This document shows, piece by piece, positions 25,214 through 40,976 of a DNA stretch of 64,000 nucleotides. Position 1 is the first letter of the stretch. Every line of letters begins with the position of its first letter. The notes beneath the pieces were generated by a model. It did no database searches. It was not told where the DNA came from and saw only the letters and a list, made by a program, of their open reading frames with translations. The translations under genes and the position numbers were made by a program. Source of the DNA: Streptomyces antibioticus (lineage in GTDB: Bacteria; Actinomycetota; Actinomycetes; Streptomycetales; Streptomycetaceae); assembly GCF_001514065.1 (NCBI RefSeq), contig NZ_KQ948427.1, positions 109,794 through 173,793 of the forward strand, written 5' to 3'.

Positions 25214-25314
25214 CGGGGCTCCCGGGACGGACGGATGTGCGGACGCGTCCCAGTTCAGCACATGTCCGTCCGATATCCGATGCCTGGGATCATGAAATCG
25301 GACTGAACGGCGGA

Positions 25315-26340
25315 TCAGCGGGCGGAGAGGCTGGAGCGGCGTACGACCAGTTCGGGCTGGAGCACCACCCGGCGGTGCTCGTGCCGGCGCGGGGCGGTCT
25401 CCGCCTCCGTCTCCTCCAGCAGCAGTTCGGCGGCCAGGGCGCCCATGGTGACGGCGGGCTGGCGGACCGAGGTGAGCGGGACGGCCGCGGCGGCGGCGAA
25501 CTCGATGTCGTCGTAGCCGACGATGGCGAGGTCGTCGGGGACGTTGATCCCGGCCGCGTACATGGCCTGGAGGACGCCCAGGGCGAGCAGGTCGTTGGCG
25601 CAGAAGACGGCGGTGGGGCGGTCGGCGAGGCCGAGCAGGCGGGCGCCGGCGTCCCGTCCCGCGGCGACGTCGAGGCGCTCGGTGGGCAGTTCGCGCAGCA
25701 CGTCGGGGCTCAGGCCGGCCTCGGCGAGGGCGTTGAGGGCGCCGGTGCGGCGGTCGCGGACCTGGTTGAAGCCGGGCGGACCGCTGACGTACGCGATGCT
25801 GCGGTGTCCGGCGTCGATGAGATGCCGTACGGCCAGCGCGCCGCCGGCGACGTCGTCGACGGAGACCGAGCACTCCGTGGTGCCCTCGGCGACCCGGTCG
25901 ACGAGCACGAAGGGGATGCCGTGGCGGCGGAAGCTCTGGATGTTGCGGCCGGTCGCGTCGGCCGGGGTCAGCAGCACGCCGCGGACCCGCTGCTCGGCGA
26001 AGAGCGACAGATACTCGGCCTCCTCCCCCGGGCTCTCCGCGCTGTTGCAGACCATCACGCCGAGCCCGGCGTCCCGCGCGGCCCGTTCGGCGCCGCGGGC
26101 GACGTCGACGAAGAAGGGGTTGCCCATGTCGAGGACGAGCAGCCCCATGATCCGGCTGCGCCCGGCGCGCAGCTGGCGGGCGGACTCGCTGCGGACGTAG
26201 CCGAGCCGGTCGATCGCGGAGAGCACTCGCGCGCGTGTCTCGGTCGCGACGGAGTCCGGGCGGTTGATGACGTTGGAGACCGTGCCCACCGACACTCCGG
26301 CGGCGCGGGCCACGTCCTTGATACCCACCGACTGGGCCAT
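25315..26340 (-). CDS. LacI-family regulator, probable rhamnose repressor
   Basis: 341 aa, with TGGAGG 9 nt before the ATG. The N-terminal LacI HTH is IKDVARAAGVSVGTVSNVINRPDSV, then a hinge helix with the RQLRAG pattern, then a periplasmic-binding-protein-like sensor domain (GLLVLDMGNPFF, CANDLLALGVLQAMY, IVGYDDIEFA). As last gene of the minus-strand rhamnose operon it is the obvious ligand-responsive repressor of the LacI-type operators at 32965 and 33131. The effector (rhamnose or a pathway intermediate) is inferred from context. Confidence 0.88.
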   Translation of the reverse strand: MAQSVGIKDVARAAGVSVGTVSNVINRPDSVATETRARVLSAIDRLGYVRSESARQLRAGRSRIMGLLVLDMGNPFFVDVARGAERAARDAGLGVMVCNSAESPGEEAEYLSLFAEQRVRGVLLTPADATGRNIQSFRRHGIPFVLVDRVAEGTTECSVSVDDVAGGALAVRHLIDAGHRSIAYVSGPPGFNQVRDRRTGALNALAEAGLSPDVLRELPTERLDVAAGRDAGARLLGLADRPTAVFCANDLLALGVLQAMYAAGINVPDDLAIVGYDDIEFAAAAAVPLTSVRQPAVTMGALAAELLLEETEAETAPRRHEHRRVVLQPELVVRRSSLSAR

Positions 26341-26419
26341 CGGACAGGAACCTCCAGGTGAAAGAGGGGCGGCGGGCAGGCCATCACATTACCGGCACTC
26401 CACCCCGAAGCGATCCCGG

Positions 26420-27832
26420 TCAGGCGGGCAGCGCGAAGTCGACGACATGGAGCGCCGACGGCGTCGTACCGCTGGACTTCTCCTGGTACATCACCGACAG
26501 GACGTCGTCCTGGGCGATGCGCGTCTCGTCGATCACGACCTCGCCGAAGGCGTTGAGGCCGCTGCCGTCGTACAGGAGCGTCCAGTCGGTGTGGCCGGAC
26601 GCCTTGGAGGCGCCGGCGATCCGGCCGAACGGGAGGATCGCGTAGGCGTTGTCGTACTTGTCCAGGACCAGCTTGGTGCGCTGGCTGGAATTGAGGGGGA
26701 CCGGGATCTCGGTCTTCTGCCAGGTCCCCGAGGAGTTCTTGCGGACGTGGAAGGCGCGGCCGTTCGCTGTGCGGTCGGCCACGTAGTTGGTGGTGCACTG
26801 GCCGAAGCGGCCGGGGACGTAGCTGATGATCGCGTGCGGCAGGCCGGCGGAGTCGGTGAACTGGCTCTCCTGGTTCATCAGGGAGTGGTCCGGGTTCAGC
26901 GCGTCGATGACCAGGCCGGGGTCGGTGACGGCAACCTTGTCGGAGCCGCCGGTGGTGCCGACGACGGTGCCCGCGTTGTTGCGCCAGGTGCGGCCGCGGT
27001 CGTCGGACCAGACGTAGCCGGTGTCGTGGTTGGTGATGCCGCCGGAGGAGCACATGACGGCGCCGTTCTGCTCGCGCCAGGTGAAGAAGGCGTGCAGTCG
27101 GCCGTTCCTGTCGTAGTCGATGCCGTGCAGGTACATGTTGCGGGCCGTCGAGGAGCCGTGCTCGCTGGTGTACGTGCCGGTGGAGCTCGACCACTCCCCG
27201 AGGGCGGTCCAGGTCGAACCGTCGTACTCGGCGAGCGCGTTGCGGCCGTTGCCGGAGATCGCGACGCGGTAGCTGAGCTGCAGCTTGCCCTCGGGGGTGG
27301 AGACGAACTGCGGGTAGGTGAACTGCGACGTGAGGGCAAGGCCGTCCAGCGTGGACTGGGGAGCGCCGAAGCGGGCCGCCGTCCAGCTGAGTCCGGCCGG
27401 ATTGTCCAGGAGCCCGGCGACCGACTTGACGTAGGTGAAGCCGTCGCTGTGCGAGTCCATGTTGAGGTGGAGCCGGCCGTCGGTCCTGGAGACGCCCGTG
27501 GAGATGACGTTGTGGGAGTCGTCGGCCTTGAGCGTGTGGCCGACCCGGACCGTGGACCAGGTGCCGCCGCCGAGGGCGCGACGGCCGACGACGGCGTTCC
27601 TGTCGGCCGTGTACCAGACGGCGTACTGGTAGCCCTTGTAGGTCAGCAGGCCGTTCTTCTGGAACGAGTTGTTGTTGACCAGGCCGTCGTAGGAGACGAA
27701 GAAGACGGCCTGGCTGTCGAGGGTGGTGGTGCCCGTCAGGGTGACGGAGGGGCCGGGGACGGCGGCCCGCGCGATGCCCGGTGTTGCCACGGCGGCCAGT
27801 ATCGCGGACGCGAGGACGGTACGTCTCTTCAT
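26420..27832 (-). CDS. Secreted BNR_4 beta-propeller protein, candidate rhamnosyl-glycan lyase/hydrolase
   Basis: 470 aa. Sec signal peptide MKRRTVLASAILAAVATPGIARA (cut near 23). The rest is a propeller of the BNR_4 type: GYQYAVWYTADRNAVVGRR, DSHNVISTGVSRTDGRLHLNMDSH, LTYPQF-like FTYPQFVSTPEGKLQLSYR, YLHGIDYDRNGRLHAFFTWRE and NQESQFTDSAGLPHAIISY. Relatives include enzymes classed as GH145/PL42 that free L-rhamnose from rhamnosyl-glucuronate ends of plant gums. Position between the rhamnose mutarotase and the LacI regulator supports an extracellular rhamnose-releasing role. Activity and catalytic residues are inferred; annotations such as 'Sir2' for similar proteins are wrong. Confidence 0.65.
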   Translation of the reverse strand: MKRRTVLASAILAAVATPGIARAAVPGPSVTLTGTTTLDSQAVFFVSYDGLVNNNSFQKNGLLTYKGYQYAVWYTADRNAVVGRRALGGGTWSTVRVGHTLKADDSHNVISTGVSRTDGRLHLNMDSHSDGFTYVKSVAGLLDNPAGLSWTAARFGAPQSTLDGLALTSQFTYPQFVSTPEGKLQLSYRVAISGNGRNALAEYDGSTWTALGEWSSSTGTYTSEHGSSTARNMYLHGIDYDRNGRLHAFFTWREQNGAVMCSSGGITNHDTGYVWSDDRGRTWRNNAGTVVGTTGGSDKVAVTDPGLVIDALNPDHSLMNQESQFTDSAGLPHAIISYVPGRFGQCTTNYVADRTANGRAFHVRKNSSGTWQKTEIPVPLNSSQRTKLVLDKYDNAYAILPFGRIAGASKASGHTDWTLLYDGSGLNAFGEVVIDETRIAQDDVLSVMYQEKSSGTTPSALHVVDFALPA

Positions 27833-27855
27833 GGAGGCGGCTCCTGAGGGGGAGG

Positions 27856-28176
27856 TCAGGCGAGGTGGAACACTTCGGTGAGCGGTTTCATGGCCTCGTC
27901 GGGGCGGGCGCCGTCCAGCGACTCGAAGAACGGCGCCATCTCCTTCTGCCAGCGGGCGTTGACCTCGGTGGCCTCCATGCCGGCCTGGGCAGCGGCGAAG
28001 TCCTCGGTCTCCAAGTAGCCGACCAGCAGGCCGTCCTCTCTGAGGAAGAGCGAGTAGTTGTGCCAGCCGGTGGCCGAGAGCGCGTCCAGCATCTCCGGCC
28101 ACACGGCGGCGTGCCGCTCGCGGTACTCGTCCAGGCGGTCCGCACGGACCTTCAGAAGGAAGCACACGCGCTGCAT
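27856..28176 (-). CDS. rhaM: L-rhamnose mutarotase
   Basis: 106 aa, full family length, with GGAGGG before the ATG. Motifs: MQRVCFLLKVRADRLDEYRERHAAVWPEM, GWHNYSLFLREDGLLVGYLE and the C-terminal WQKEMAPFFE. The histidine of RHAAVWPE and the YSLF-tyrosine are the expected active-site residues. It interconverts alpha and beta anomers of L-rhamnose in the cytoplasm, supplying the form used by the isomerase. 17 nt downstream of rhaS, so in the same operon. Also called rhaU in rhizobia. Confidence 0.93.
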   Translation of the reverse strand: MQRVCFLLKVRADRLDEYRERHAAVWPEMLDALSATGWHNYSLFLREDGLLVGYLETEDFAAAQAGMEATEVNARWQKEMAPFFESLDGARPDEAMKPLTEVFHLA

Positions 28177-28193
28177 CAACGACCCTCCAGGGC

Positions 28194-29273
28194 CTAGAAG
28201 TTGAACTGGTCGATGTTCTTGGCGTCGAACACGGTCGGCTTGCCGAGGTTGATCACGCCGTCCTTGCCGATGGTGTACGTGGTGTCGCCGGCCTTGAAGG
28301 TCTCGCCCTCCTTGCCGGTGATCTGGCCGGACGCCAGGGCGACGGCGGTGCGGGCGGCGAGGTCGCCGAGCTTCGCCGGGTCCCACAGCTCGAACGCCTC
28401 GACGGTGCCGTTCTTGACGTACTTGCGCATGTCGTTGGGGGTGCCGAGGCCGGTCAGCTTGACCTTGCCCTTGTACTTGGAGCCCGACAGGTACTGGGCG
28501 GCGGCCTTGATGCCGACGGTGGTCGGGGAGATGATCCCCTTCAGGTTCGGGTACTGCTGGAGCAGGCCCTGGGTCTGCTGGAAGGACTTCTGGGCGTCGT
28601 CGTCGCCGTAGGCGACCTTGACGAGCTTGATGTCCTTGTACTTCGGGTCCTTCAGCTCCTCCTTCATGAAGTCGATCCAGACGTTCTGGTTCGTCGCGGT
28701 CTGCGCGGCCGACAGGATCGCGATCTCGCCCTTGTAGCCGATCTGCTCGGCGAGCAGCTGCACCTCGGTGCGGCCGAGGTCCTCGGCGGAGGCCTGCGAG
28801 ACGAAGGCGTTACGGCAGTCGGGCTTGGTGTCGGAGTCGTAGGTGACGACCTTGATGTCGTTCTTCATGGCCTGCTTGGTCGCGGTGCACAGGGCGCCCG
28901 GGTCCTGCGCGGAGATGGCCATCGCGTCGACCTGCTGCTGGGTGAGCGTGTTGACGTACGACACCTGGCCGGCGGTGTCGGTGGCGTTGGAGGGGCCGAC
29001 CTCCTTGTAGCTGGAGCCCAGCTCCTTCAGGGCCGCCTCGCCGCCCTTGTCGGCGGAGGTGAAGTAGGGGTTGTTGACCTGCTTGGGCAGGAAGCCGACG
29101 GTCAGGCCCTTCTTGGTGGCCGCGTTCGGGTCGGCCTTGGCGGTGGTGGCCGCGGAGGCGCCTTCGTTCTCCACGTCCTTCTTGGTGGTGCCGCCACAGG
29201 CGGTGAGCGCGAGGGCGAGAGAGGTCCCGGCGGCGAGGACCGCGGAGACACGGCGGAGGGATGACTTGCGCAT
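28194..29273 (-). CDS. rhaS: Rhamnose ABC transporter substrate-binding lipoprotein
   Basis: 359 aa. Lipoprotein signal SLALALTACGGT with the lipid-carrying cysteine at about 26. A type-I periplasmic-binding fold of the ribose/autoinducer-2 class follows (VGFLPKQVNNPYFTSADKGGEAALKELG, AMAISAQDPGALCTATKQAMKNDIKVVTYDSD, GIISPTTVGIKAAAQYL, LTGLGTPNDMRKYVKNG). The sequence order and neighbours (importer subunits and mutarotase) point to L-rhamnose as ligand, as for RhaS of rhizobia. RBS AAAGGAA. A 30-nt repeat lies in the gap before it. Confidence 0.9.
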   Translation of the reverse strand: MRKSSLRRVSAVLAAGTSLALALTACGGTTKKDVENEGASAATTAKADPNAATKKGLTVGFLPKQVNNPYFTSADKGGEAALKELGSSYKEVGPSNATDTAGQVSYVNTLTQQQVDAMAISAQDPGALCTATKQAMKNDIKVVTYDSDTKPDCRNAFVSQASAEDLGRTEVQLLAEQIGYKGEIAILSAAQTATNQNVWIDFMKEELKDPKYKDIKLVKVAYGDDDAQKSFQQTQGLLQQYPNLKGIISPTTVGIKAAAQYLSGSKYKGKVKLTGLGTPNDMRKYVKNGTVEAFELWDPAKLGDLAARTAVALASGQITGKEGETFKAGDTTYTIGKDGVINLGKPTVFDAKNIDQFNF

Positions 29274-29313
29274 GGCGGGGATTCCTTTGAAAGAAGGATG
29301 AGTGGAGGTACCT

Positions 29314-29343
29314 AGGGGCGCGGGGAACTGCGCGACCAGCCAC
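29314..29343. repeat. Streptomyces intergenic repeat, copy 1
   Basis: Thirty bases beginning AGGGGCGCGGGGAACTGCGC, in the 95-nt gap between the second permease gene and rhaS. An exact reverse complement occurs at 34397-34426. The sequence is a common dispersed repeat of Streptomyces intergenic regions (from memory) and contains a short CGCG...CGCG hairpin. Confidence 0.85.
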
Positions 29344-29368
29344 AGCGAACCCGCAGCGTCAAACGGCG

Positions 29369-30343
29369 TTAAGACGTGAGCCTTCGTGCCCTAGCGATCG
29401 CAATCTGCCGAGCTACACGCGGCCCGAGCACCGACAGCACCAGCAGGACACCGGTGACGACGATCTGCGACTGCGCCGAAACGTCCTGGAGGCTCATCAC
29501 GTTCTGAAGCGCCCCCAGCAGGAACACCCCAGCAATGGCCCCACCGAGCGTCCCCTTGCCCCCGTCAAAATCGATGCCACCGAGCAACACCGCCGCGATG
29601 ACGGACAGTTCAAGCCCGGTCGCGTTGTCATACCGAGCGGACGCGTAGTGCAGCGCCCAGAAGACGCCGGTGAGCGAGGCCATCAGGCCCGTCACCGTGA
29701 ACAGGACGAGCTTCTGCCGCTTGACGCGGATGCCGGCGAACCGCGCGGCCTCCTCGCTCGCGCCGATCGCGAACGTGGCCCGCCCGAACGCCGTGGCGTG
29801 CAGCACGATCACGGCGATCACGAGCAGCACGAGGAAGGGCACGAAGGCCTGCGGGACGAACGTGTCGCCGATCCGGCCGGCCGCGAAGTCCAGGTACTGG
29901 GTGGGGAAGTCGGTCACCGAGTCGGAGCCGAGCACGATCTGTGCGATGCCCCGGTAGGCGGCGAGGGTGCCGATGGTGACGGCGAGGGAGGGCAGCCCGA
30001 GCCGGGTGACGAGCAGGCCGTTGACGAGGCCACAGACCACGCCGAGCAGCAGGCAGACCGGGATGATCGTCTCGATCGTCATGCCCTGGTTCCACAGGTG
30101 GCCCATCACGGCGCCGGAGAGTCCGGCGGTGGAGGCGACGGAGAGATCGATCTCGCCCGAGACGACCAGCAGGGTCATCGGGAGGGCGACCAGGGCGATC
30201 GGAAGGGTGTTGCCGATCAGGAACGACAGGTTGAGCGCGTTCCCGAAACCGTCGACCGTTGCGAAGGACAGCAGGAGCACGACGATCAGAACGGCGCCGA
30301 CGACCGTGTCCCAGCGGACGGCTCGCGTCAGAGACTCAGACAT
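29369..30343 (-). CDS. rhaQ: Rhamnose ABC transporter permease
   Basis: 324 aa, with eight or more membrane helices of the ribose-type permease family (BPD_transp_2): LSFLIGNTLPIALVALPMTLLVVSGEIDLSVASTAGLS carries the typical GEIDLSV loop, and VLLGGIDFDGGKGTLGGAIAGV the conserved second signature. Its start codon overlaps the end of the preceding permease gene by 8 nt, so they are coupled. Forms a heterodimeric membrane channel with it in the rhamnose importer. Confidence 0.9.
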   Translation of the reverse strand: MSESLTRAVRWDTVVGAVLIVVLLLSFATVDGFGNALNLSFLIGNTLPIALVALPMTLLVVSGEIDLSVASTAGLSGAVMGHLWNQGMTIETIIPVCLLLGVVCGLVNGLLVTRLGLPSLAVTIGTLAAYRGIAQIVLGSDSVTDFPTQYLDFAAGRIGDTFVPQAFVPFLVLLVIAVIVLHATAFGRATFAIGASEEAARFAGIRVKRQKLVLFTVTGLMASLTGVFWALHYASARYDNATGLELSVIAAVLLGGIDFDGGKGTLGGAIAGVFLLGALQNVMSLQDVSAQSQIVVTGVLLVLSVLGPRVARQIAIARARRLTS

Positions 30344-31406
30344 GGCGGGCGTTCCTGTTCTTCGAGGTCGTCTTCTTCAGGGCCGTCTTCTTCAGGGCCG
30401 AGGCCACCCGCAGCGCGACGATCCGGTCGACCGCGATGGCGAGGATGAGCAGGATGCCGTTGATGGCGAGCACCCACACGGAGCTGACGCCGAGCGCGGG
30501 CAGCATGCTGTTGATGGAGGTCAGCAACATGGCGCCGAGGGCCGCTCCGTAGACGCTGCCGGAGCCGCCGGTGAAGACGACGCCGCCGACCACGACCGCG
30601 CTGACGACGGTCATCTCGTAGCCGGTGCCGGTGCCGGAGTCGACGTTGCCGAACCGGGCAAGGTAGAGCGCACCGGCGAGTCCGGCGAGGGCCCCGCAGC
30701 AGGTGTAGGCCGTCAGGATCCGTTTGCGCACCGGGATGCCCGCGAGGCGCGCGGCCTCGGGGTTGGAGCCGAGGGCGTACAGCTCGCGGCCGCTGCCGAA
30801 GTGCTTGAGGTAGTAGGCGGTGACCACCAGCACGGCCAGCGCGATGAGCGCGAGATACGGCACGGCGGAGACACCGCCGGAGCCGAAGTCGATGAACCCG
30901 TCGGGGAGGCCCGCGGCGGTGATCTGCCGGGAGCCGACCCAGATGGAGTCGATGCCGCGGACGATGTACATCGTGCCGAGGGTGACGACGAGCGCGGGTA
31001 CCTGGCCGAAGCTGACCAGCAGGCCGTTGAGCAAGCCGAAGCCGATGCCCAGCAGCACCGCGAGCAGCACGGCCACCCCGGCGTTGCCGCCGTCCTGGAG
31101 ATGGACGCCGGCCGCGAAGGCGCTGATCCCGAGGGTGGAGCCGACCGACAGGTCGACGTTCCGGGTGATGACGACCAGCGACTGGCCGGTGGCGACCAGC
31201 ACCAGGATCGTCGCGTTGAGCAGCAGGTCCTTGATGCCCTGTTCGGACAGGAACTCGCTGTTGCCGGCCTGGGTGATGGCGATCATCACCAGGAAGACGA
31301 CCAGGATGGCGAGTTCGCGCATCTTGAAGACGCGGTCGACGAGCCGGGTGCCGCTGGACTTGGGCACCCCGGTGGTCGAAGCGGGGTTGGGTGCGGTCAC
31401 CGTCAT
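30336..31406 (-). CDS. rhaP: Rhamnose ABC transporter permease
   Basis: 356 aa. Ribose-type permease with [30 protein letters not shown] and [22 protein letters not shown] signatures. The ATG at 31406 overlaps the stop of the ATPase gene in an ATGA. The C-terminus is an unusual Lys/Thr-rich repeat ([16 protein letters not shown]), predicted cytosolic. Assigned to rhamnose import by operon position between the ATPase, second permease and binding-protein genes. Confidence 0.9.
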
Positions 31407-32920
31407 GCGGCCGCCCTCCCCGTGGCTGCTGCCATCACGGTTTCCTCGGTTGCTTCGGAGCGCGGGATCTCGGCGGTGAGCCGGCCCTCGTGCATCACGA
31501 GCACGCGGTCGGCCATGCCGAGGATCTCGGGCAGGTCGGAGGAGATCATCAGTACGGCGACGCCGTCGGCGGCGAGTTCGCCGAGCAGCCGGTGCACCTC
31601 GGCCTTGGTGCCGACGTCGATGCCGCGGGTGGGCTCGTCGACGATCAGCACCTTGGGGCCGGTGGCGAGCCACTTGGCGAGGACGACCTTCTGCTGGTTG
31701 CCGCCGGACAGGGTGTTGACCGTGTCGGCGATGCGGGCGTACTTGACCTGGAGCTTGACGGCCCAGTCGAGGGACCGGCTGCGCTCGGCGCCGCGGTCCA
31801 TCAGGCCGGCCTTCACGGTCGTACGAAGTCCGGTGAGGCCGATGTTGCGCTCGATGGACATGTCCATCACCAGGCCCTGGGCGCGCCGGTCCTCGGGGAC
31901 GAGGGCGAGGCCCGCGGCCATGGCGGCGGAGGGGGCGCCGTTGGTCAGTGGCCTGCCGTCCACGGAGACATCGCCCGCGTCCCAGCGGTCGATGCCGAAG
32001 ACGGTCCGGGCGACCTCGGTGCGGCCGGCGCCGACGAGGCCGGCGAGGCCGACGATCTCACCGCGCCGCACCTGGAAGGAGACGTCGGTGAAGACACCCT
32101 CCCGGGTCAGGCGGTTCACCGTCAGGGCGACCTCGCCGGGGCGTACCTCCTGCTTCGGGTACAGCTCGTCGAGGTCGCGGCCGACCATGCGGCGCACGAG
32201 GTCGTCCTCGGTCATGCCGTCGATGGGCTCGCTGGAGATCCAGGCGCCGTCGCGGAGCGTGGTGACCCGTTGGCAGATCTGGAAGATCTCCTCCAGGCGG
32301 TGCGAGATGAACAGGACGGCCGCGCCCTGTTCGCGCAGGGTGCGCACGACGCCGAACAGGCGGGCCACCTCGCTGCCGGTGAGGGCGGCGGTCGGCTCGT
32401 CCATGATCAGGACGCGGGCCTCGAAGGAGAGCGCCTTGGCGATCTCGACGATCTGCTGGTCCGCGATGGACAGGCCTCGTGCGGGGCGGTCGGGGTCGAG
32501 CTCGACGCCGAGACGCCGCATCAGGGCGGCGGTGGCCGCGTGGGTGGCCTTGTGGTCGATCCGGCCGAGGGCCTTCCGGGGCTGACGTCCCATGAAGATG
32601 TTCTCGGCGATCGAGAGGTCGGGGAAGAGCGTGGGCTCCTGGTAGATCACGGCGATACCGGCGTCGCGGGCGTCGCCGGGGCCGTGGAAGACGACGGGCT
32701 CGCCGTCGAGGAGTACCTGACCGGCGTCCGGTCGGTGCACCCCGGCGAGGGTCTTGATGAGAGTCGACTTGCCCGCGCCGTTCTCGCCGGCGAGGGCGTG
32801 GACCTCGCCGGGCAACAGCTCCAGGGAGACGTCCCGCAGGGCGCGTACGGCTCCGAAGGACTTCGAGATGTCCTTGAGCGCCAGCACCGGGGCCGGTCCC
32901 GCATCGGACGGGTGGGTCAT
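31403..32920 (-). CDS. rhaT: Rhamnose ABC transporter ATP-binding protein (two ABC domains)
   Basis: 505 aa, with GAGGAG upstream of the ATG. Two tandem ABC domains as in sugar importers of the RbsA type. The first has Walker [13 protein letters not shown], signature [15 protein letters not shown] and Walker [12 protein letters not shown]. The second has a degenerate Walker A ([12 protein letters not shown]), signature [15 protein letters not shown] and [12 protein letters not shown]. The second site is probably catalytically weak, as usual in this family. First gene of the minus-strand rhamnose operon, directly behind the LacI-type operator. Confidence 0.92.
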
Positions 32921-32964
32921 GAGGGGCTCCTCGACAACGCCCGGGGACTGCCCTCACGGCGCCG

Positions 32965-32976
32965 TGAAAGGTTTCA
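32965..32976. promoter_or_regulatory. LacI-type operator of the rhaT operon
   Basis: TGAAAGGTTTCA, a palindrome with TGAA/TTCA ends, lies about 8-19 nt downstream of the predicted rhaT start point, a classic roadblock/repressor position. The same pattern (TGAATCGTTTCA) lies at the rhaI promoter. Confidence 0.65.
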
Positions 32977-32990
32977 ACTTGGTTGCCGGG

Positions 32991-33020
32991 ACGTTAGACA
33001 CGGCGCCCACATCGCGTCAA
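32991..33020 (-). promoter_or_regulatory. Predicted promoter of rhaTPQSM-bnr-lacI operon
   Basis: On the minus strand TTGACG (33020-33015), 18-nt spacer, TAACGT (32996-32991); start predicted near 32984. Confidence 0.5.
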
Positions 33021-33030
33021 TGGGTTCGTG

Positions 33031-33045
33031 TCGAAAAAATTTCGA
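33031..33045. promoter_or_regulatory. A/T-rich palindrome between divergent rhamnose promoters
   Basis: TCGAAAAAATTTCGA: perfect 6-bp arms TCGAAA/TTTCGA around AAA. The CGAAA-n-TTTCG type of palindrome is a known form of LacI-family site in sugar-hydrolase promoters of Streptomyces. It lies upstream of both promoters, so an activator or catabolite-control site is possible. Confidence 0.4.
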
Positions 33046-33094
33046 GACTCATAGGTCGCGGCCGAGTCACGAGCAACAGCCTTGGTCGCAGGGC

Positions 33095-33123
33095 TTGACA
33101 CCCCACCGGGCGCCTCATACTTT
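33095..33123 (+). promoter_or_regulatory. Predicted promoter of rhaI operon
   Basis: TTGACA (33095-33100), 17-nt spacer, TACTTT (33118-33123); start near 33130, directly abutting the operator. Confidence 0.55.
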
Positions 33124-33130
33124 CGCGTCT

Positions 33131-33142
33131 TGAATCGTTTCA
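33131..33142. promoter_or_regulatory. LacI-type operator of the rhaI operon
   Basis: TGAATCGTTTCA at about +1 to +12 of the predicted transcript. A second perfect palindrome, GAACCGGTTC (33147-33156), follows 4 nt later and could be a further half of a composite site. Confidence 0.65.
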
Positions 33143-33193
33143 CAGTGAACCGGTTCGGAAACCCTTCGGACCCGACGTCACAGGAGCCCTCAA

Positions 33194-34354
33194 GTGACCG
33201 AGCTCGCCGCGGTGAAGGCCGCGCTCAAGACCCAGGCAGTCGAGACGCCGTCGTGGGCGTACGGGAACTCGGGAACGCGCTTCAAGGTGTTCGCGCAACA
33301 GGGCGTCCCGCGTGATCCCTGGGAGAAGCTCGACGACGCCGCGCAGGTGCACGCCTTCACCGGGGTCGCGCCGACCGTGGCGCTGCACATCCCGTGGGAC
33401 AAGGTGGAGGACTATGCGGCGCTGGCGAAGCACGCGCAGGAGCGCGGGGTGAAGCTCGGCGCGATCAACTCCAACACCTTCCAGGACGACGACTACAAGC
33501 TGGGCAGCATCTGCCACCCGGATGCGGCGGTGCGCCGTAAGGCCGTCGATCACCTGTTGGAGTGCGTCGACATCATGGACGCGACCGGGTCGAAGGACCT
33601 GAAGCTGTGGTTCGCCGACGGCACGAACTATCCGGGGCAGGACGACATCCGGTCCCGGCAGGACCGGCTCGCCGAGGGCCTCGCCGAGGTGTACGAGCGG
33701 CTGGGTGACGGGCAGCGGATGCTGCTGGAGTACAAGTTCTTCGAGCCGGCCTTCTACTCGACGGACGTGCCGGACTGGGGGACGGCGTACGCCCACTGCC
33801 TCAAGCTCGGGGAGAAGGCGCAGGTCGTGGTCGACACGGGCCATCACGCGCCGGGGACCAACATCGAGTTCATCGTCGCGACGCTGCTGCGGGAGAACAA
33901 GCTCGGTGGGTTCGACTTCAACTCGCGGTTCTACGCGGACGACGACCTCATGGTCGGGGCCGCCGATCCGTTCCAGCTGTTCCGGATCATGTACGAGGTG
34001 GTGCGCGGGGGTGGGTTCACGCCCGGGGTCGCGTTCATGCTCGACCAGTGCCACAACATCGAGGCGAAGATTCCGGCGATCATCCGGTCGGTGATGAACG
34101 TGCAGGAGGCCACGGCGAAGGCGTTGCTGGTCGACCGGGATGCGTTGTCTGCTGCGCAGGCTTCGGGGGATGTGCTTGAGGCCAACGCCGTGATCATGGA
34201 TGCGTACAACACGGATGTGCGACCGCTTCTGCGGGAGGTGCGGGAGGAATTGGGGTTGGATGCCGACCCCATTGCTGCGTACCGGCGATCCGGGTGGGCC
34301 GAGAAGATCGTGGCTGAGCGAGTGGGTGGGCAGCAGGCCGGGTGGGGGGCGTAA
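33194..34354 (+). CDS. rhaI: L-rhamnose isomerase (TIM-barrel type)
   Basis: 386 aa from a GTG behind CAGGAG. Xylose-isomerase-like TIM barrel of the Pseudomonas/rhizobial L-rhamnose isomerase type. Expected metal ligands and active-site stretches are visible: [44 protein letters not shown] (glutamate), [13 protein letters not shown] (aspartate, histidines) and [16 protein letters not shown] (aspartates). Converts L-rhamnose to L-rhamnulose. First gene of the plus-strand operon. Confidence 0.93.
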
Positions 34355-34396
34355 ACGTCTGCCGGGTTCTGTCGTATGCGGGGTGCGGGCCGGTTC

Positions 34397-34426
34397 GTGG
34401 CTGGTCGCGCAGTTCCCCGCGCCCCT
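34397..34426. repeat. Streptomyces intergenic repeat, copy 2 (inverted)
   Basis: Exact reverse complement over 30 nt of the element at 29314-29343, here in the 109-nt gap between rhaI and rhaEW. Reads GTGGCTGGTCGCGCAGTTCC at its left end. Confidence 0.85.
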
Positions 34427-34463
34427 TGGAAACGCATCCCCTCTTTAAAAGGATCTGGAAGTC

Positions 34464-36503
34464 ATGGCAATCCATCCCGAAGCTGCTGCCCTCCTCTCCC
34501 GCTCCCACCGGCTCGGTGCCGACCCCCGTAACACCAACTACGCCGGTGGCAACGCGTCGGCGAAAGGTATCGACAGTGATCCCGTCACCGGGGGTGATGT
34601 GGAGCTGATGTGGGTCAAGGGGTCCGGTGGGGATCTCGGGACGCTGACCGAGGCGGGGCTTGCCGTGTTGCGGCTGGATCGGCTGCGGGCGCTCGTCGAT
34701 GTCTACCCGGGTGTCGAGCGCGAGGACGAGATGGTCGCCGCGTTCGACTACTGCCTGCACGGCAAGGGCGGGGCCGCTCCCTCCATCGACACCGCGATGC
34801 ACGGACTCGTCGACGCCGCGCACGTCGATCATCTGCACCCGGACTCCGGGATCGCGCTGGCCTGTGCGGCGGACGGCGAGAAGCTGACCGCCGAGTGCTT
34901 CGGCGACACCGTGGCCTGGGTGCCGTGGCGGCGGCCCGGGTTCCAGCTGGGGCTGGACATCGCCGCGATCAAGGAGGCCAACCCACAGGCGATCGGTGTC
35001 GTCCTGGGCGGGCACGGCATCACGGCGTGGGGCGCCACCGCCGAGGAGTGCGAGCGGAACTCGCTGCACATCATCCGGACGGCCGAGAAGTTTCTGGAGG
35101 AACGCGGCAAGGCCGAGCCCTTCGGGCCGGTGATCGAGGGGTACGAGGCTCTCGGCGAGCGTGAGCGACGCCAGCGGGCCGCCGCGCTGGCTCCCCACGT
35201 ACGGGCCATCGCCTCGCAGGACCGGCCCCAGGTCGGGCACTTCAACGACTCGGACGTGGTGCTGGAGTTCCTGGCCCGTGCCGAGCACCCGCGGCTCGCC
35301 GCGCTGGGCACCTCCTGCCCTGACCACTTCCTGCGCACCAAGGTGGCCCCGCTCGTCCTCGACCTGCCTCCGACGGCTCCCCTGGAGGAGGTCGTCGCGC
35401 GGCTCGGCGAACTGCACGCCGCCTACCGTGAGGAGTACGCCGCCTACTACCAGCGGCACGCGCTGCCCGACTCCCCCGCGATGCGCGGTGCGGACCCGGC
35501 GATCGTGCTGATCCCGGGGGTCGGGATGTTCTCCTTCGGGAAGGACAAGCAGACCGCCCGGGTCGCCGGCGAGTTCTACGTCAACGCGATCAATGTGATG
35601 CGGGGCGCCGAGGCCGTGTCGTCGTACGCGCCGATCGAGGAGTCCGAGAAGTTCCGCATCGAGTACTGGGCCCTTGAGGAGGCCAAGCTCCAGCGGATGC
35701 CGAAGCCGAAGCCGCTGGCCACCCGGGTCGCGCTGGTGACGGGTGCGGGCAGCGGGATCGGCAAGGCGATCGCGCAGCGGCTGGTCGCCGAGGGTGCGTG
35801 CGTCGTCATCGCCGATCTCCATGCCGAGAACGCCGCTGCCGTCGCCGAGGAACTCGGTGGGCCCGACAAGGCCGTCGCCGTCACCGTCGACGTGACCTCC
35901 GAGGAGCAGATCGCCGACGCCTTCAAGGCGGCCGTGCTCGCCTTCGGCGGGGTGGACCTGGTCGTCAACAACGCCGGGATCTCCATCTCCAAGCCGCTGC
36001 TGGAGACGTCGAGCAAGGACTGGGACCTCCAGCACGACATCATGGCCCGTGGCTCCTTCCTCGTCTCCCGCGAGGCGGCCCGGGTGATGATCGCGCAGCG
36101 ACTGGGCGGCGACATCGTCTACATCGCCTCCAAGAACGCCGTGTTCGCCGGTCCCAACAACATCGCCTACTCCGCCACCAAGGCCGACCAGGCCCACCAA
36201 GTGCGTCTGCTGGCGGCCGAGTTGGGTGAGCACGGCATTCGCGTCAACGGCGTCAACCCGGACGGTGTGGTGCGCGGTTCCGGGATCTTCGCCGGTGGCT
36301 GGGGTGCCCAGCGGGCGGCCGTGTACGGCGTGGCGGAGGAGAAGCTGGGCGAGTTCTACGCGCAGCGGACCATCCTCAAGCGCGAGGTGCTGCCGGAGCA
36401 CGTCGCCAACGCGGTCTTCGCGCTGACCGGTGGGGAGTTGACCCACACCACCGGTCTGCATGTCCCCGTCGACGCCGGCGTCGCGGCCGCCTTCCTGCGG
36501 TGA
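34464..36503 (+). CDS. rhaEW: Bifunctional rhamnulose-1-phosphate aldolase / L-lactaldehyde dehydrogenase
   Basis: 679 aa. Residues 1-400 form a class II aldolase/adducin domain (zinc site DHLHPDSGIALA, late GGHGITAWGATAEE). Residues 420-679 form an SDR (VTGAGSGIGKAIA at about 427, NNAGIS at about 503, YSATKAD at about 569, INGVNPDGVVRGS). The aldolase cuts rhamnulose-1-phosphate to dihydroxyacetone phosphate and L-lactaldehyde; the dehydrogenase oxidises the latter to L-lactate. The fusion has been described as RhaEW in other bacteria. RBS AAAAGGA. Stop overlaps the kinase start (GTGA). Confidence 0.92.
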   Translation: MAIHPEAAALLSRSHRLGADPRNTNYAGGNASAKGIDSDPVTGGDVELMWVKGSGGDLGTLTEAGLAVLRLDRLRALVDVYPGVEREDEMVAAFDYCLHGKGGAAPSIDTAMHGLVDAAHVDHLHPDSGIALACAADGEKLTAECFGDTVAWVPWRRPGFQLGLDIAAIKEANPQAIGVVLGGHGITAWGATAEECERNSLHIIRTAEKFLEERGKAEPFGPVIEGYEALGERERRQRAAALAPHVRAIASQDRPQVGHFNDSDVVLEFLARAEHPRLAALGTSCPDHFLRTKVAPLVLDLPPTAPLEEVVARLGELHAAYREEYAAYYQRHALPDSPAMRGADPAIVLIPGVGMFSFGKDKQTARVAGEFYVNAINVMRGAEAVSSYAPIEESEKFRIEYWALEEAKLQRMPKPKPLATRVALVTGAGSGIGKAIAQRLVAEGACVVIADLHAENAAAVAEELGGPDKAVAVTVDVTSEEQIADAFKAAVLAFGGVDLVVNNAGISISKPLLETSSKDWDLQHDIMARGSFLVSREAARVMIAQRLGGDIVYIASKNAVFAGPNNIAYSATKADQAHQVRLLAAELGEHGIRVNGVNPDGVVRGSGIFAGGWGAQRAAVYGVAEEKLGEFYAQRTILKREVLPEHVANAVFALTGGELTHTTGLHVPVDAGVAAAFLR

Positions 36504-37939
36504 GCGCGCTCGTGAAGTCGTACGCCGCGGTCGACCTCGGCGCGTCCAGCGGGCGTGTCATGGTCGGCCGCGTCGGCCCCGACAGCGTGGAGCTGGCCGA
36601 GGCGCACCGATTCGCGAACCGGCCGGTGCGGGTTCCGGAGGGGCTGCGCTGGGACGTTCTCTCGTTGTACGCCGGGGTGTTGGACGGGCTGAGAGCGGCA
36701 GGGCAGGTGGACTCCGTCGGCATCGACAGCTGGGCCGTGGACTACGGCCTGCTGGACGCCGACGGGGCGCTGCTCGGCAACCCGGTGCACTATCGCGACT
36801 CCCGTACCGAGGGTGTCGCGGAGAAGGTGTGGGCGACCGTGCCGGCGGCGGAGCTGTACGCCGCGACCGGTTTGCAGTACGCGCCGTTCAACACGCTGTA
36901 CCAGCTGACGGCCGATCATCTCGCGGGTGCCGAGCGCCTGTTGATGATCCCTGATCTGCTGACGTACTGGCTCACCGGCGAGCAGGGCACCGAACTCACC
37001 AACGCCTCCACCACCCAGCTCATCGATCCCCGGACGCGCGAGTGGTCGTACGACATCGCCTCCCGGCTGGGGATCGACCTCGGGCTGTTCGCGCCGCTGC
37101 GGCGGCCCGGTGACCCTGCCGGGGTGCTGCGGCCCGAGGTGCTGGAGGAGACGGGGCTGCGCGGGCCGGTGCCGGTGACGACCGTCGGTTCGCACGACAC
37201 CGCGTCCGCGGTGGCCGCCGTCCCGGCCACGGCCGGCGAACGGTTCGCGTACATCTGCACCGGCACCTGGTCGCTGGCGGGGCTCGAACTCGACGCCCCC
37301 GTACTGACGGAGGAGAGCCGGGCCGCCAACTTCACCAATGAGCTGGGGCTCGACGGTACGGTCCGTTATCTGCGCAACATCATGGGGCTGTGGCTGCTCC
37401 AGGAGTGTGTACGGGCCTGGGGCGAGCCGGAGTTGGGGGCGCTGCTCCTCGACGCGGCGAAGGCGCCGGCGCTGCGGTCGGTGGTGGACGCCTCCGATCC
37501 GGTGTTCCTTGCGCCGGGCCGGATGCCGGAGCGTATCGCCGAGGCGTGCCGTGCCTCGGGGCAGCCGGTGCCCCGGACGCCCGGGGAGATCACGCGCTGC
37601 ATCCTCGACTCGCTGGCGCTCGCGCACCGCAAGGCGATCGAGGAGGCCGGGCGGCTTGCCGACCGTCCCGTCGACGTCGTGCACATCGTCGGCGGCGGCA
37701 CCCGCAACGCGCTGCTGTGCCGGCTGACCGCCGACGCCTGTGGGCTGCCGGTGGTGGCGGGTCCGACGGAGGCCGCGGCCCTCGGGAACGTGCTGGTCCA
37801 GGCACGGACGCACGGGCTGGTCGGCGACCTCGCGGACGGGCGGGCGCTGCTCACCCGTACCCAGCCGCTGACCCGGTACGAGCCCCAGGGTGACACGGCG
37901 CCGTGGCGCGCGGCGGAGGCCCGGCTCGCCACAGGGTGA
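36500..37939 (+). CDS. rhaB: Rhamnulokinase
   Basis: 479 aa, FGGY-family kinase. N-terminal phosphate loop YAAVDLGASSGRVMVG, SVGIDSWAVDYGLLD with the catalytic aspartate, YRDSRTEGV, ICTGTWSLAGLELD, and the C-terminal ATP motif IVGGGTRNALLCRLTADACGLPV. Phosphorylates L-rhamnulose at C1. The GTG start overlaps the rhaEW stop, coupling kinase and aldolase synthesis; the aldolase thus precedes its substrate-making kinase in the operon. About 70 nt separate it from lutA. Confidence 0.93.
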   Translation: MSALVKSYAAVDLGASSGRVMVGRVGPDSVELAEAHRFANRPVRVPEGLRWDVLSLYAGVLDGLRAAGQVDSVGIDSWAVDYGLLDADGALLGNPVHYRDSRTEGVAEKVWATVPAAELYAATGLQYAPFNTLYQLTADHLAGAERLLMIPDLLTYWLTGEQGTELTNASTTQLIDPRTREWSYDIASRLGIDLGLFAPLRRPGDPAGVLRPEVLEETGLRGPVPVTTVGSHDTASAVAAVPATAGERFAYICTGTWSLAGLELDAPVLTEESRAANFTNELGLDGTVRYLRNIMGLWLLQECVRAWGEPELGALLLDAAKAPALRSVVDASDPVFLAPGRMPERIAEACRASGQPVPRTPGEITRCILDSLALAHRKAIEEAGRLADRPVDVVHIVGGGTRNALLCRLTADACGLPVVAGPTEAAALGNVLVQARTHGLVGDLADGRALLTRTQPLTRYEPQGDTAPWRAAEARLATG

Positions 37940-38011
37940 GCGGGGGTCTCCCCTCGGCGACGAGTCCGCATTACCCTGCACTCATCCGATGATCGATCAC
38001 AAGGAGCCGCG

Positions 38012-38767
38012 ATGCGTGTCGCCCTGTTCCTGACCTGTGTCAACGACACGCTCTATCCGGACACCGGCCGCGCCGTGGTGAAACTGCTGACCAGGCTGGG
38101 CGTCGAGGTCGATTTCCCGATGGCCCAGACCTGCTGCGGGCAGGCTCACTACAACACCGGCTATCGCCATGAGACGGAGCCGATGGCCCGGCATTTCTCC
38201 GATGTCTTCGGGGAGTACGAGGCGATCGTCACGCCGTCCGGTTCGTGCGGGGCGATGGTGCGGGAGCTGTATCCGCGGCTGGGCGAGCGGGCGCGGGCGG
38301 AGGGGCGTGGGGACGGGCTCGCGACCGCGCTGGCGCCCGTGGTGCCGAAGACGTACGAGCTCACGGAGTTTCTGGTGGACGTGCTGGGGGTGACCGACGT
38401 GGGCGCCTACTACCCGCACAAGGTGACCTACCACCCGACCTGTCACGGACTGCGCGGACTGGGGCTCGGTGACCGGCCCCGGCGGCTGCTCCAGGCCGTG
38501 AAGGGGCTGGAGTTGGCGGAGCTTCCGGGGGCGGAGGAGTGCTGCGGTTTCGGCGGCACCTTCTCCGTGAAGAACTCCGACGTCTCGGCGGCGATGGGCG
38601 CGGACAAAGTGCGCAACGCCGAGTCGACGGGTGCCGAGGTGCTGTGCGCGGCCGACAACTCCTGTCTGATGCACATCGGCGGCACCATGAGCCGACTCAA
38701 GGTGGACATGCGGCCGGTGCACATCGCGGAGATCCTGGCGAGCACGGAGGAGGAGCCGGCGGCATGA
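38012..38767 (+). CDS. lutA: L-lactate oxidation protein LutA (CCG-domain (Fe-S)-binding)
   Basis: 251 aa, with AAGGAG before the ATG. Two CCG domains: AQTCCGQAHYNTG and EECCGFGGTFSVK, with extra cysteines (VNDT-preceding C, GSCGAM, THPTC-like YHPTCHG, NSCLMHIGG). This is LldE/LutA, one subunit of the NAD-independent L-lactate dehydrogenase complex made by lutABC. It may start its own operon or continue from rhaB; L-lactate is the end product of the RhaEW reaction, which links the two operons metabolically. Confidence 0.92.
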   Translation: MRVALFLTCVNDTLYPDTGRAVVKLLTRLGVEVDFPMAQTCCGQAHYNTGYRHETEPMARHFSDVFGEYEAIVTPSGSCGAMVRELYPRLGERARAEGRGDGLATALAPVVPKTYELTEFLVDVLGVTDVGAYYPHKVTYHPTCHGLRGLGLGDRPRRLLQAVKGLELAELPGAEECCGFGGTFSVKNSDVSAAMGADKVRNAESTGAEVLCAADNSCLMHIGGTMSRLKVDMRPVHIAEILASTEEEPAA

Positions 38768-40239
38768 GCGGGACCTTTGTAGGGATGCCGGCCTTCCCGA
38801 AAGCCGCGCACGAAGCGGTCAACAACCCGACCCTGCGCGGCAATCTGCGCCACGCCACGCACACGATCCGCGCCAAGCGCGAGAAGGCCGTCGCCGAGGT
38901 CTCCGACTGGGCCGAGCTGCGCGAGGCGGGCAAGCGGATCAAGGACCACACCCTCCGTCATCTCGACGACTACCTAGTCCAGTTGGAGGAGTCGGTGACG
39001 GCGGCGGGCGGCATCGTCCACTGGGCGGCCGACGCCGAGGAGGCCAACCGGATCGTCACCGAACTGGTCAAGGCCACCGGCGAGTCGGAGGTCGTGAAGG
39101 TCAAGTCGATGGCCACGCAGGAGATCGGGCTCAACGAGGCGCTGGAGGAGGCGGGCATCCGCGCCTACGAGACCGATCTCGCCGAGCTCATCGTGCAGTT
39201 GGGCAAGGACCGGCCCTCGCACATCCTCGTTCCGGCCATCCACCGCAACCGGGGCGAGATCCGGGACATCTTCGAGCGGGAGATGAGCGAGTGGGGGCGC
39301 CCGGCCCCCCAGGGCCTCACCGACACGCCCGCCGAACTCGCCGAGGCCGCCCGCCTCCACCTCCGCGAGAAGTTCCTGCGCGCCAAGGTCGGCATCTCCG
39401 GCGCCAACTTCATGGTCGCCGAGACCGGCACCCTGGTGGTCGTCGAGTCCGAGGGCAACGGACGGATGTGTCTGACCCTGCCCGAGACGCTGATCTCGGT
39501 CGTCGGCATCGAGAAGATCGTGCCCACCTGGCAGGACCTGGAGGTCTTCCTCCAGACCCTCCCCCGCTCCTCGACCGCCGAGCGCATGAACCCGTACACG
39601 TCGACGTGGACCGGCACCACCGACGGCGACGGACCGAAGACCTTCCACCTGGTGCTCCTGGACAACGGCCGCACCGACACCCTCGCCGACGAGGTCGGCC
39701 GCCAGGCCCTGCGCTGCATCCGCTGCTCGGCCTGTCTGAACGTCTGCCCGGTCTACGAGCGGGCCGGCGGCCACGCCTACGGCTCGGTGTACCCGGGCCC
39801 GATCGGCGCCATCCTCAGCCCCCAACTCCGGGGCACGACAAGCGAGATCGACGCCTCCCTGCCGTACGCCTCGTCGCTGTGCGGTGCCTGCTACGAGGTG
39901 TGCCCGGTCGCCATCGACATCCCCGAGGTGCTGGTGCATCTGCGGGAGCGGGTCGTGCAGGGCGGTGAGGTGACGCGCGAGGGCAACAAGGTGGTGCTCA
40001 AGCCGGCCAAGGGGCATGCCGCCGAGCGGGCGGCGATGCGGGCGGCCCGCTGGGCGTTCGCGCGCCCCGGCGCGGTGCGCGCGGGCCAGCGCCTCGCCTC
40101 CCGCACCCGTCGGCTGCATCCGCGCCGTCTGCCGCTGCCGGGTCCCGGCAAGGCGTGGAGCGAGACACGGGATCTGCCACCCGTGCCCGCGGAGCCGTTC
40201 CGTGACTGGTGGCAGCGGACTCAGGGCAGTGCCAAGTGA
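38764..40239 (+). CDS. lutB: L-lactate oxidation iron-sulfur protein LutB
   Basis: 491 aa; ATGA overlap with lutA. An N-terminal LUD domain (about 60-300, ILVPAIHRNRGEIRDIF, MVAETGTLVVVESEGNGRMCLTLP) is followed by two 4Fe-4S clusters, CIRCSACLNVCP at about 319 and CGACYEVCP at about 373, and a basic C-terminal tail. LldF/LutB carries electrons from L-lactate oxidation towards the respiratory chain together with LutA and LutC. Confidence 0.93.
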   Translation: MSGTFVGMPAFPKAAHEAVNNPTLRGNLRHATHTIRAKREKAVAEVSDWAELREAGKRIKDHTLRHLDDYLVQLEESVTAAGGIVHWAADAEEANRIVTELVKATGESEVVKVKSMATQEIGLNEALEEAGIRAYETDLAELIVQLGKDRPSHILVPAIHRNRGEIRDIFEREMSEWGRPAPQGLTDTPAELAEAARLHLREKFLRAKVGISGANFMVAETGTLVVVESEGNGRMCLTLPETLISVVGIEKIVPTWQDLEVFLQTLPRSSTAERMNPYTSTWTGTTDGDGPKTFHLVLLDNGRTDTLADEVGRQALRCIRCSACLNVCPVYERAGGHAYGSVYPGPIGAILSPQLRGTTSEIDASLPYASSLCGACYEVCPVAIDIPEVLVHLRERVVQGGEVTREGNKVVLKPAKGHAAERAAMRAARWAFARPGAVRAGQRLASRTRRLHPRRLPLPGPGKAWSETRDLPPVPAEPFRDWWQRTQGSAK

Positions 40240-40913
40240 GCAGCAGGGAACGGATTCTGGGCCGGGTGCGGCGCGCGCTGGCCGACGCCCCGGGCGAGAA
40301 CACGCCGATCGAGCGCACGTATCTGCGCGAGCACGGTGACCGCAGTGTCGAGGAGACCACCGAACTCCTCGCCGAGAACCTCGCCGACTACCGTGCGATC
40401 GTGCACCGTTGCTCCCCGGACGACCTCGCGGTGACGCTCGCGGGGATGCTGGCCGCGCGCGGCGCGAAGACGGTGCTCGTGCCGCCGGGGCTCGACCCGG
40501 CGTGGCTCGCGGACGCCGACGCCGAGCAGGTCCCCGACCGGCCGGAGAGCACCCCGCACGAACTGGACCGGATCGACAGCGTGGTCACGGCCTGCGCGGT
40601 GGCCGTCGCCGAGACCGGCACGATCGTGCTGGACTGCGGCCCGGACCAGGGCCGCCGCCGGATCACGCTGGTTCCCGACCACCACATCTGTGTCGTCCGG
40701 GTCCCGGACCAGGTCGTCGGCTCGGTGCCGCAGGCCCTCGAACGCCTCGACCCGCTCCGCCCGTTGACGTGGATCTCCGGTCCTTCGGCGACCAGTGACA
40801 TCGAGCTGGACCGGGTGGAGGGGGTGCACGGTCCGCGCGCCCTGGAGGTGGTGCTGGTCGGCGCTCAGCCCGGCGCGGAGGCCAACCCGCCGCAGGAGGT
40901 CCCTTCGGCGTAG
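40236..40913 (+). CDS. lutC: L-lactate oxidation protein LutC (LUD domain)
   Basis: 225 aa from a GTG that overlaps the lutB stop (GTGA). LUD-domain core ACAVAVAETGTIVLDCGPDQGRRRITLVPDHHICVV and the C-terminal WISGPSATSDIELDRVEGVHGP, which is diagnostic for LldG/YkgG/LutC. Third subunit of the L-lactate oxidising complex. The operon ends here; 63 nt follow before the damaged ABC ATPase gene. Confidence 0.93.
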   Translation: MSSRERILGRVRRALADAPGENTPIERTYLREHGDRSVEETTELLAENLADYRAIVHRCSPDDLAVTLAGMLAARGAKTVLVPPGLDPAWLADADAEQVPDRPESTPHELDRIDSVVTACAVAVAETGTIVLDCGPDQGRRRITLVPDHHICVVRVPDQVVGSVPQALERLDPLRPLTWISGPSATSDIELDRVEGVHGPRALEVVLVGAQPGAEANPPQEVPSA

Positions 40914-40976
40914 TGAAATCCACCCTGGAGATCCTGCCGGAGGGCGTGATCAGGCGCGCGCCCTTAGCGTGAGGTC

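Follow-up and report, generated by a model that had tools for sequence, protein, structure and literature searches.

Is a block of genes that appears to take L-rhamnose through to pyruvate run by one switch or by two? The question is raised by positions 25315–40913 of a 64-kb stretch of the 10.1-Mb Streptomyces antibioticus genome (hereafter the window), where a leftward operon, rhaT-rhaQ-rhaP-rhaS-rhaM-propeller gene-lacI, diverges from a rightward one, rhaI-rhaEW-rhaB-lutA-lutB-lutC. An earlier note on this DNA had named these genes and read them as a single module under one LacI code; NCBIfam and Pfam profiles, together with gene position, bore out the names, order and coordinates of both operons. 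The regulatory reading that we favour, with a probability of roughly two in three, is that of a LacI-controlled rhamnose cassette (unit 1, 25315–37939) attached to a lactate operon with its own switch (unit 2, 37972–40913), the two forming adjoining catabolic units under separate control.

Putative regulatory sites before lutA and rhaI

lutA begins 72 bp after rhaB on the same strand, and the junction reads TACCCT-GCAC-TCATCCGATGA. The features of this junction and of the genes that follow are:

37972–37977, + strand: TACCCT, a −10-like box that may belong to a lutABC promoter (a TA-N3-T box before the operator is conserved)
37982–37992, no strand: LutR-type operator TCATCCGATGA, an exact match to the Bacillus subtilis LutR consensus TCATC-N1-GATGA
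38012–38767, + strand: lutA, with two CCG stretches (Pfam)
38764–40239, + strand: lutB (TIGR00273, 457 bits, cut-off 445)
40236–40913, + strand: lutC, with LUD_dom (Pfam)

The three products carry the domains of a LutABC set (CCG in LutA; LUD, 4Fe-4S and LutB_C in LutB; LUD in LutC), and lutB is the sole LutB match in its own genome. In B. subtilis the same gene set is under LutR, whose consensus lies downstream of the lutA promoter (PMC11734750), but in Streptomyces lutABC is docked behind rhaIEWB.

The LutR-type site was sought at 61 rhaB–lutA junctions from the 114 Streptomyces genomes in which rha and lut genes are linked (20 chosen for diversity, the 40 first remaining in the list, and the window). 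In 54 of these junctions rhaB and lutA are separated by 50 bp or more; there it was found exactly in 33 and with at most one mismatch in 45, against 0.0001 and 0.0009, respectively, for letter shuffles of the same stretches. A TA-N3-T box precedes the operator by 3–5 nt in 39 of these 45 junctions, and by 4 nt in 37; TACCCT is marked above as a putative promoter element. In the window the LutR-type site occurs once. Given its own putative promoter and LutR-type operator, lutABC could be switched on by external or internal lactate without rhamnose.

The operators assigned to unit 1 lie elsewhere, in the region between rhaT and rhaI, for which 75 intergenic sequences were aligned:

32965–32976, no strand: LacI-type operator 1, TGAAAGGTTTCA, in 75/75 regions
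33031–33045, no strand: further inverted repeat TCGAAA-N3-TTTCGA between the two LacI-type sites, its N2–4 form in 63/75 regions
33095–33124, + strand: rhaI promoter-like hexamers TTGACA ... CATACT, conserved in the alignment
33131–33142, no strand: LacI-type operator 2, TGAATCGTTTCA, in 71/75 regions, with TGAATCGATTCA in the other 4; it lies between the promoter-like hexamers and the rhaI start

A strict σ70 consensus scan of 32900–41000 returned no promoter, the rhaI hexamers included. No TGAA-N4-TTCA site other than these two operators occurs in the window (0.12 expected), and hence neither lutA nor lacI nor the propeller gene has one. The presence of a LacI-family gene, together with palindromes of LacI type beside the rha promoters, fits a LacI-type RhaR regulon, in which the regulator would repress both divergent operons through the two palindromes. 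Judged by these motifs, the single LacI code of the earlier note appears half right: it fits the divergent rhaT/rhaI region but not lutA, with its own −10-like box and LutR-type site. TGAANSSNTTCA sites were present somewhere in 19/20 lut-linked and 20/20 lut-less rha loci fetched. A two-mismatch scan gave 5 matches where 1.62 are expected, but four of the 5 are simply the two operators, each counted once per strand; a two-mismatch match at 27879–27890 (the rhaM end, 47 bp before the propeller gene) was set aside as fitting chance.

The pattern TGAAWSGTTTCA occurs three times in the genome, the third time as a perfect site on another contig (C9), 37 bp before an operon for a CUT1 solute-binding protein and permease (L133, 4631–5968), from which three proteins were run against Pfam. 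This operon is a weak candidate for a rhamnosyl-oligosaccharide importer belonging to the regulon, being marked by one extra site where ~0.2 is expected.

The lutA junction bears directly on the chief alternative, a single LacI regulon in which lutABC simply ends the rhaI operon and lacks a separate switch. Such a reading draws on the shared strand and the short gap, and on the literature. The genes termed lldEFG are presumably lutABC. In some Actinomycetales genomes with RhaEW, lldEFG or lldD fall within RhaR regulons (Rodionova et al., 2013; PMC3870299). It draws also on seven rha-linked junctions, out of 61, at which rhaB and lutA abut or overlap and the LutR-type site is missing, lut there looking like a plain operon tail. 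Those junctions weigh against a separate lut switch, as do three further points: no terminator-like site was found between rhaB and lutA, so that read-through, and with it LacI control of lutABC, may occur; TCATC-N-GATGA is found at 2 places in the genome when ~1.4 are expected from base composition, so that the genome count alone is no evidence, whereas position and conservation are; and the operator, and with it a LutR-like regulator, is proposed from agreement with a consensus from Bacillus. The second genomic site, on contig C4, has neighbours whose translations point to nothing connected with lactate, and it fits chance. Against the single regulon stand the site in most gapped junctions and the −10-like box before 39 of its 45 occurrences there, and we consider that alternative unlikely. 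Under two switches, lutABC would be reachable both by read-through from rhaB and from its own promoter, where the LutR-type operator closely follows the −10 box.

Linkage and history of the rha and lut genes

Linkage was assessed by scanning 246 Streptomyces genomes, 160 of which had RhaEW above cut-off, with positions listed for 145. LutB lay on the same strand, 2293–3627 bases downstream of RhaEW, in 114 of the 145. A PL42-like gene (the propeller family considered below) was no more than 40 kb from RhaEW in 77, all of them lut-linked too. Outside the genus, 91 Actinomycetes genomes had RhaEW, and in the first 80 of these LutB was detected at E 1e-50 or better in 35 and within 11 kb of RhaEW in 20, the linked cases spanning seven families and several arrangements and distances. 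All these counts are of genomes sharing ancestry and not of independent events. The conservation that the earlier note had put forward as a check was thus found, and a linkage unique to this strain could be rejected.

A narrower set of 80 named loci, all from Streptomyces, homologous by DNA conservation and biased to near relatives, has a 10-kb flank that ends just before lutA in nearly all, so that lutABC was scored in one (L023). Within it 72/80 loci show the same genes in the same order as far as rhaB, seven of the remaining eight being cut at a contig end; L023 and L067 are without the importer, and the propeller gene is followed by lacI in 80/80.

In a LutB tree of 58 sequences, one branch separates 34 of the 35 rha-linked rows, accompanied by 9 others, from the remainder, which includes one linked row (G129). 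The linkage label required 8 changes, whereas shuffled labels needed 18.3 and none of 500 shuffles came as low; the linked rows did not form one clade. Of the 23 rows labelled unlinked, G117 and G106 in fact follow rha genes that are truncated or mere remnants. The regulatory site follows the same division: of 20 lutA genes initially classed as unlinked to rha, five had a LutR-type site (at most one mismatch), all of them among the 9 on the rha side of the tree (5/9) and none among the 11 on the other (0/11). G117 and G106 are two of these five.

Six of the nine unlinked rha-side loci (G093, G103, G205, G176, G106 and G117) were aligned to the window. Their rha genes are absent or truncated, and yet five of the six keep the LutR-type site with at most one mismatch; the genes to the right of lutABC are shared with the window in all six and those to the left in five. 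In G093 and G103, left-hand homology stops at 25262 and 25208, respectively, and picks up again at 37972, precisely at the −10-like box; G205 also resumes at 37972, making three of six loci in which homology starts at this box. G176 resumes at 38002 and is without the site. G106 (L243) and G117 (L242) show intermediate stages: in the former, lacI is followed by a fragment that starts at 37613, in the rhaB end, and then by lutA; the latter retains the stretch from 35136, inside rhaEW, which is cut at its start. From these alignments G106 and G117 look like deletions of rha genes; in the other four, gain and loss would leave the same picture. Unit 2 and its motif thus survive where unit 1 is missing or truncated, which again speaks against lutABC being only the tail of a LacI operon.

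Less favourable to a two-unit locus are the four of nine unlinked rha-side rows that lack the LutR-type site (G023, G192, G225 and G176) and the 31 of 145 Streptomyces genomes in which RhaEW has no lut neighbour. Of those 31 lut-less loci, 20 were inspected for what replaces lut, and six of their proteins were run against Pfam; no lactate dehydrogenase was found among the six, one of which is a GH78 rhamnosidase (L114). By Pfam, GH78 α-L-rhamnosidase genes lie within the rha loci of two other Streptomyces, at 11526–14729 in L114, which is lut-less, and at 4583–7768 in L093 (G184), which has lutABC and a PL42-like gene.

The same loci raise the possibility that rha and lut are neighbours by descent only, functionally uncoupled, the rha genes having settled beside an ancestral lut locus. 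That lutABC stays beside common flanking genes where rha is absent or truncated, and that its operator is of the lactate type, would suit this view, but linkage recurs in seven other families with varied arrangements and distances, and the product of the rhamnose pathway is the lut substrate; we regard uncoupled neighbours as improbable. Returning to two adjoining units, a fuller version of that reading for Streptomyces is a two-switch relay, in which a LacI cassette that takes rhamnose caps off plant arabinogalactans with a bacterial PL42 lyase feeds L-lactate to lutABC under a Bacillus-type LutR operator, lut being the stable part and the rha cassette having been deleted in some lineages with the lutABC switch left intact. 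For this version taken as a whole, the odds appear about even.

The propeller enzyme

26420–27832, − strand: PL42-like L-rhamnose-α-1,4-D-glucuronate lyase, a propeller protein (PF15892 BNR_4, 5.8e-79)

The earlier note had the block start from a rhamnose polymer. That wording is too broad, since the propeller protein seems to be an exo-lyase, cutting terminal L-rhamnose from glucuronate. It has the fold of a seven-bladed propeller; its nearest solved structure, and its best match both by sequence and by fold, is FoRham1, the PL42 L-rhamnose-α-1,4-D-glucuronate lyase from Fusarium oxysporum (PMC8377490, PMC10951650), with 127 of 376 aligned positions identical. With FoRham1 as reference, active sites were compared across 81 rows, the window protein being P0001. 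Twelve of 13 FoRham1 active-site residues are kept in P0001, and each of these twelve is kept in 80 or 81 of the 81 rows. They include the His-His-Asp triad and the Arg neutraliser (H85/H105/D83 and R166 in FoRham1; H108/H129/D106 and R190 in P0001) and the rhamnose-binding Asn-Gln-Arg of PL42; of the nine site residues other than the triad and neutraliser (Y26, N275, Q276, R331, E381, Y150, S170, Y202 and R220), eight are identical.

The enzyme might instead be a GH145-type hydrolase, that is, an α-L-rhamnosidase, or a PL24/PL25 ulvan lyase, for the fold is common to all these families and the sole NCBIfam match is the BT3686 α-L-rhamnosidase model, at 99 of 700 bits and thus far below cut-off. 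BT3686 (GH145) is also a propeller that acts on Rha-GlcA, and it does so with a posterior-face catalytic His48 (PMC8377490). That position, Tyr34 in FoRham1, is Tyr66 in P0001, and among the 81 rows it is Tyr in 76, His in 2, Cys in 2 and a gap in 1. With the catalytic His replaced by Tyr, GH145 membership was rejected; the PL24/PL25 enzymes score ~10 Z units below FoRham1 in the fold comparison, and the conserved PL42 site argues against both families, so that either assignment seems very doubtful. The protein therefore looks PL42-like and not GH145. Two of the loci L003–L082 have His at the GH145 position with the PL42 site kept, and would offer a natural test of dual active sites.

FoRham1 differs in being fungal; the window enzyme sits in a rhamnose catabolic locus. 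A PL42-like assignment has points against it as well. Tyr26 of FoRham1, a rhamnose contact, is Phe in P0001. The genome search found no PF07470 unsaturated glucuronyl hydrolase; the other product of the lyase would thus be left with no obvious enzyme, and any use of the remaining glycan would be conjecture. The substrate type looks like terminal L-rhamnose on glucuronate, as in gum arabic and arabinogalactan proteins. The N-terminus resembles a secretion signal (judged by eye), and a secreted lyase would take this terminal sugar off α-1,4-linked glucuronate by β-elimination. PL42-like matches occur in 90 of the 246 Streptomyces genomes, some as fragments, which gives a likely identity to the propeller enzyme of about a third of the genomes sampled and predicts that soil actinomycetes remove rhamnose caps from arabinogalactan proteins. 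Short or interrupted matches in G169, G111, G077, G172 and G086 are possibly decaying copies.

Rhamnose genes, pathway precedent and neighbouring genes

The remaining genes of unit 1 are:

25315–26340, − strand: LacI-family regulator, probable RhaR (Pfam LacI and Peripla_BP_3; also placed by its position after the propeller gene)
27856–28176, − strand: rhaM, L-rhamnose mutarotase (PF05336, 1.8e-33, above the Pfam cut-off)
28194–29273, − strand: rhaS, rhamnose-binding protein (TIGR02637, 483 bits, cut-off 342)
29369–30343, − strand: rhaP, permease (sugar ABC permease families, below cut-offs; position)
30336–31406, − strand: rhaQ, permease (BPD_transp_2; start placed at 31406)
31403–32920, − strand: rhaT, ATPase (RbsA/AraG-like, below cut-offs; position)
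33194–34354, + strand: rhaI, L-rhamnose isomerase (TIGR02635, 678 bits, cut-off 531)
34464–36503, + strand: rhaEW, rhamnulose-1-phosphate aldolase/lactaldehyde dehydrogenase fusion (NF006188, 1386 bits, cut-off 1152; TIGR02632, 1102 bits, cut-off 568)
36500–37939, + strand: rhaB, rhamnulokinase (TIGR02627, 455 bits, below the cut-off of 528 but a full-length match; FGGY_N/FGGY_C)

The LacI-family protein is below the cut-off of all 20 NCBIfam families that it matched, and RhaM is below its NCBIfam cut-off (67 vs 99.6 bits). RhaP, RhaQ and RhaT matched general sugar-importer families, below the cut-offs of those shown, and owe their assignment to sharing an operon with rhaS. RhaEW joins a class II aldolase (PF00596) to a short-chain dehydrogenase (PF00106).

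Freed rhamnose would be imported by RhaSTPQ and converted by RhaM, RhaI, RhaB and RhaEW to dihydroxyacetone phosphate and L-lactate, which lutABC would oxidise to pyruvate. This route, as the earlier note had it, fits the gene families and published enzymology: RhaEW with isomerase and kinase yields lactate and dihydroxyacetone phosphate from rhamnose in vitro (Rodionova et al., 2013; PMC3870299). The view that the rha–lut pairing was undescribed as a unit had to be given up, however, for the same paper places lactate dehydrogenase genes in Actinomycetales RhaR regulons. Those regulons resemble the present locus in their LacI-type RhaR, rhamnose isomerase, RhaEW and RhaB, in a RhaSTPQ-type importer in several genomes, and in a pathway for which pyruvate was inferred as an end product; several also hold putative rhamnosidases and an oligosaccharide ABC importer. 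The available part of that paper mentions neither a PL42-like lyase nor a separate promoter for the lactate genes. Apart from it, we found no literature on this Streptomyces locus among titles and the starts of abstracts; one paper, on Endozoicomonas (PMC6955870), mentions rhamnose, lutABC and RhaEW together. The locus is thus a well-conserved and essentially known pathway with two refinements that look new, the PL42-like front end and the separate LutR-type switch at the back end. The latter would correct the regulatory picture of that pathway, as the lactate step appears to own a Bacillus-like operator and the locus could thereby serve lactate without rhamnose.

Downstream of lutC, at 40977–42127, lies a gene for a glycine betaine/proline-type ABC ATPase with a CBS domain that is split across two frames, with an apparent frameshift at ~41225; a homologue at the matching place elsewhere is in one frame (L244, 9283–10446). 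Further on, 42318–43553 encodes a glycosyltransferase similar to the rifamycin-inactivating Rgt, with a score of 570 bits that is below the curated cut-off of 800.

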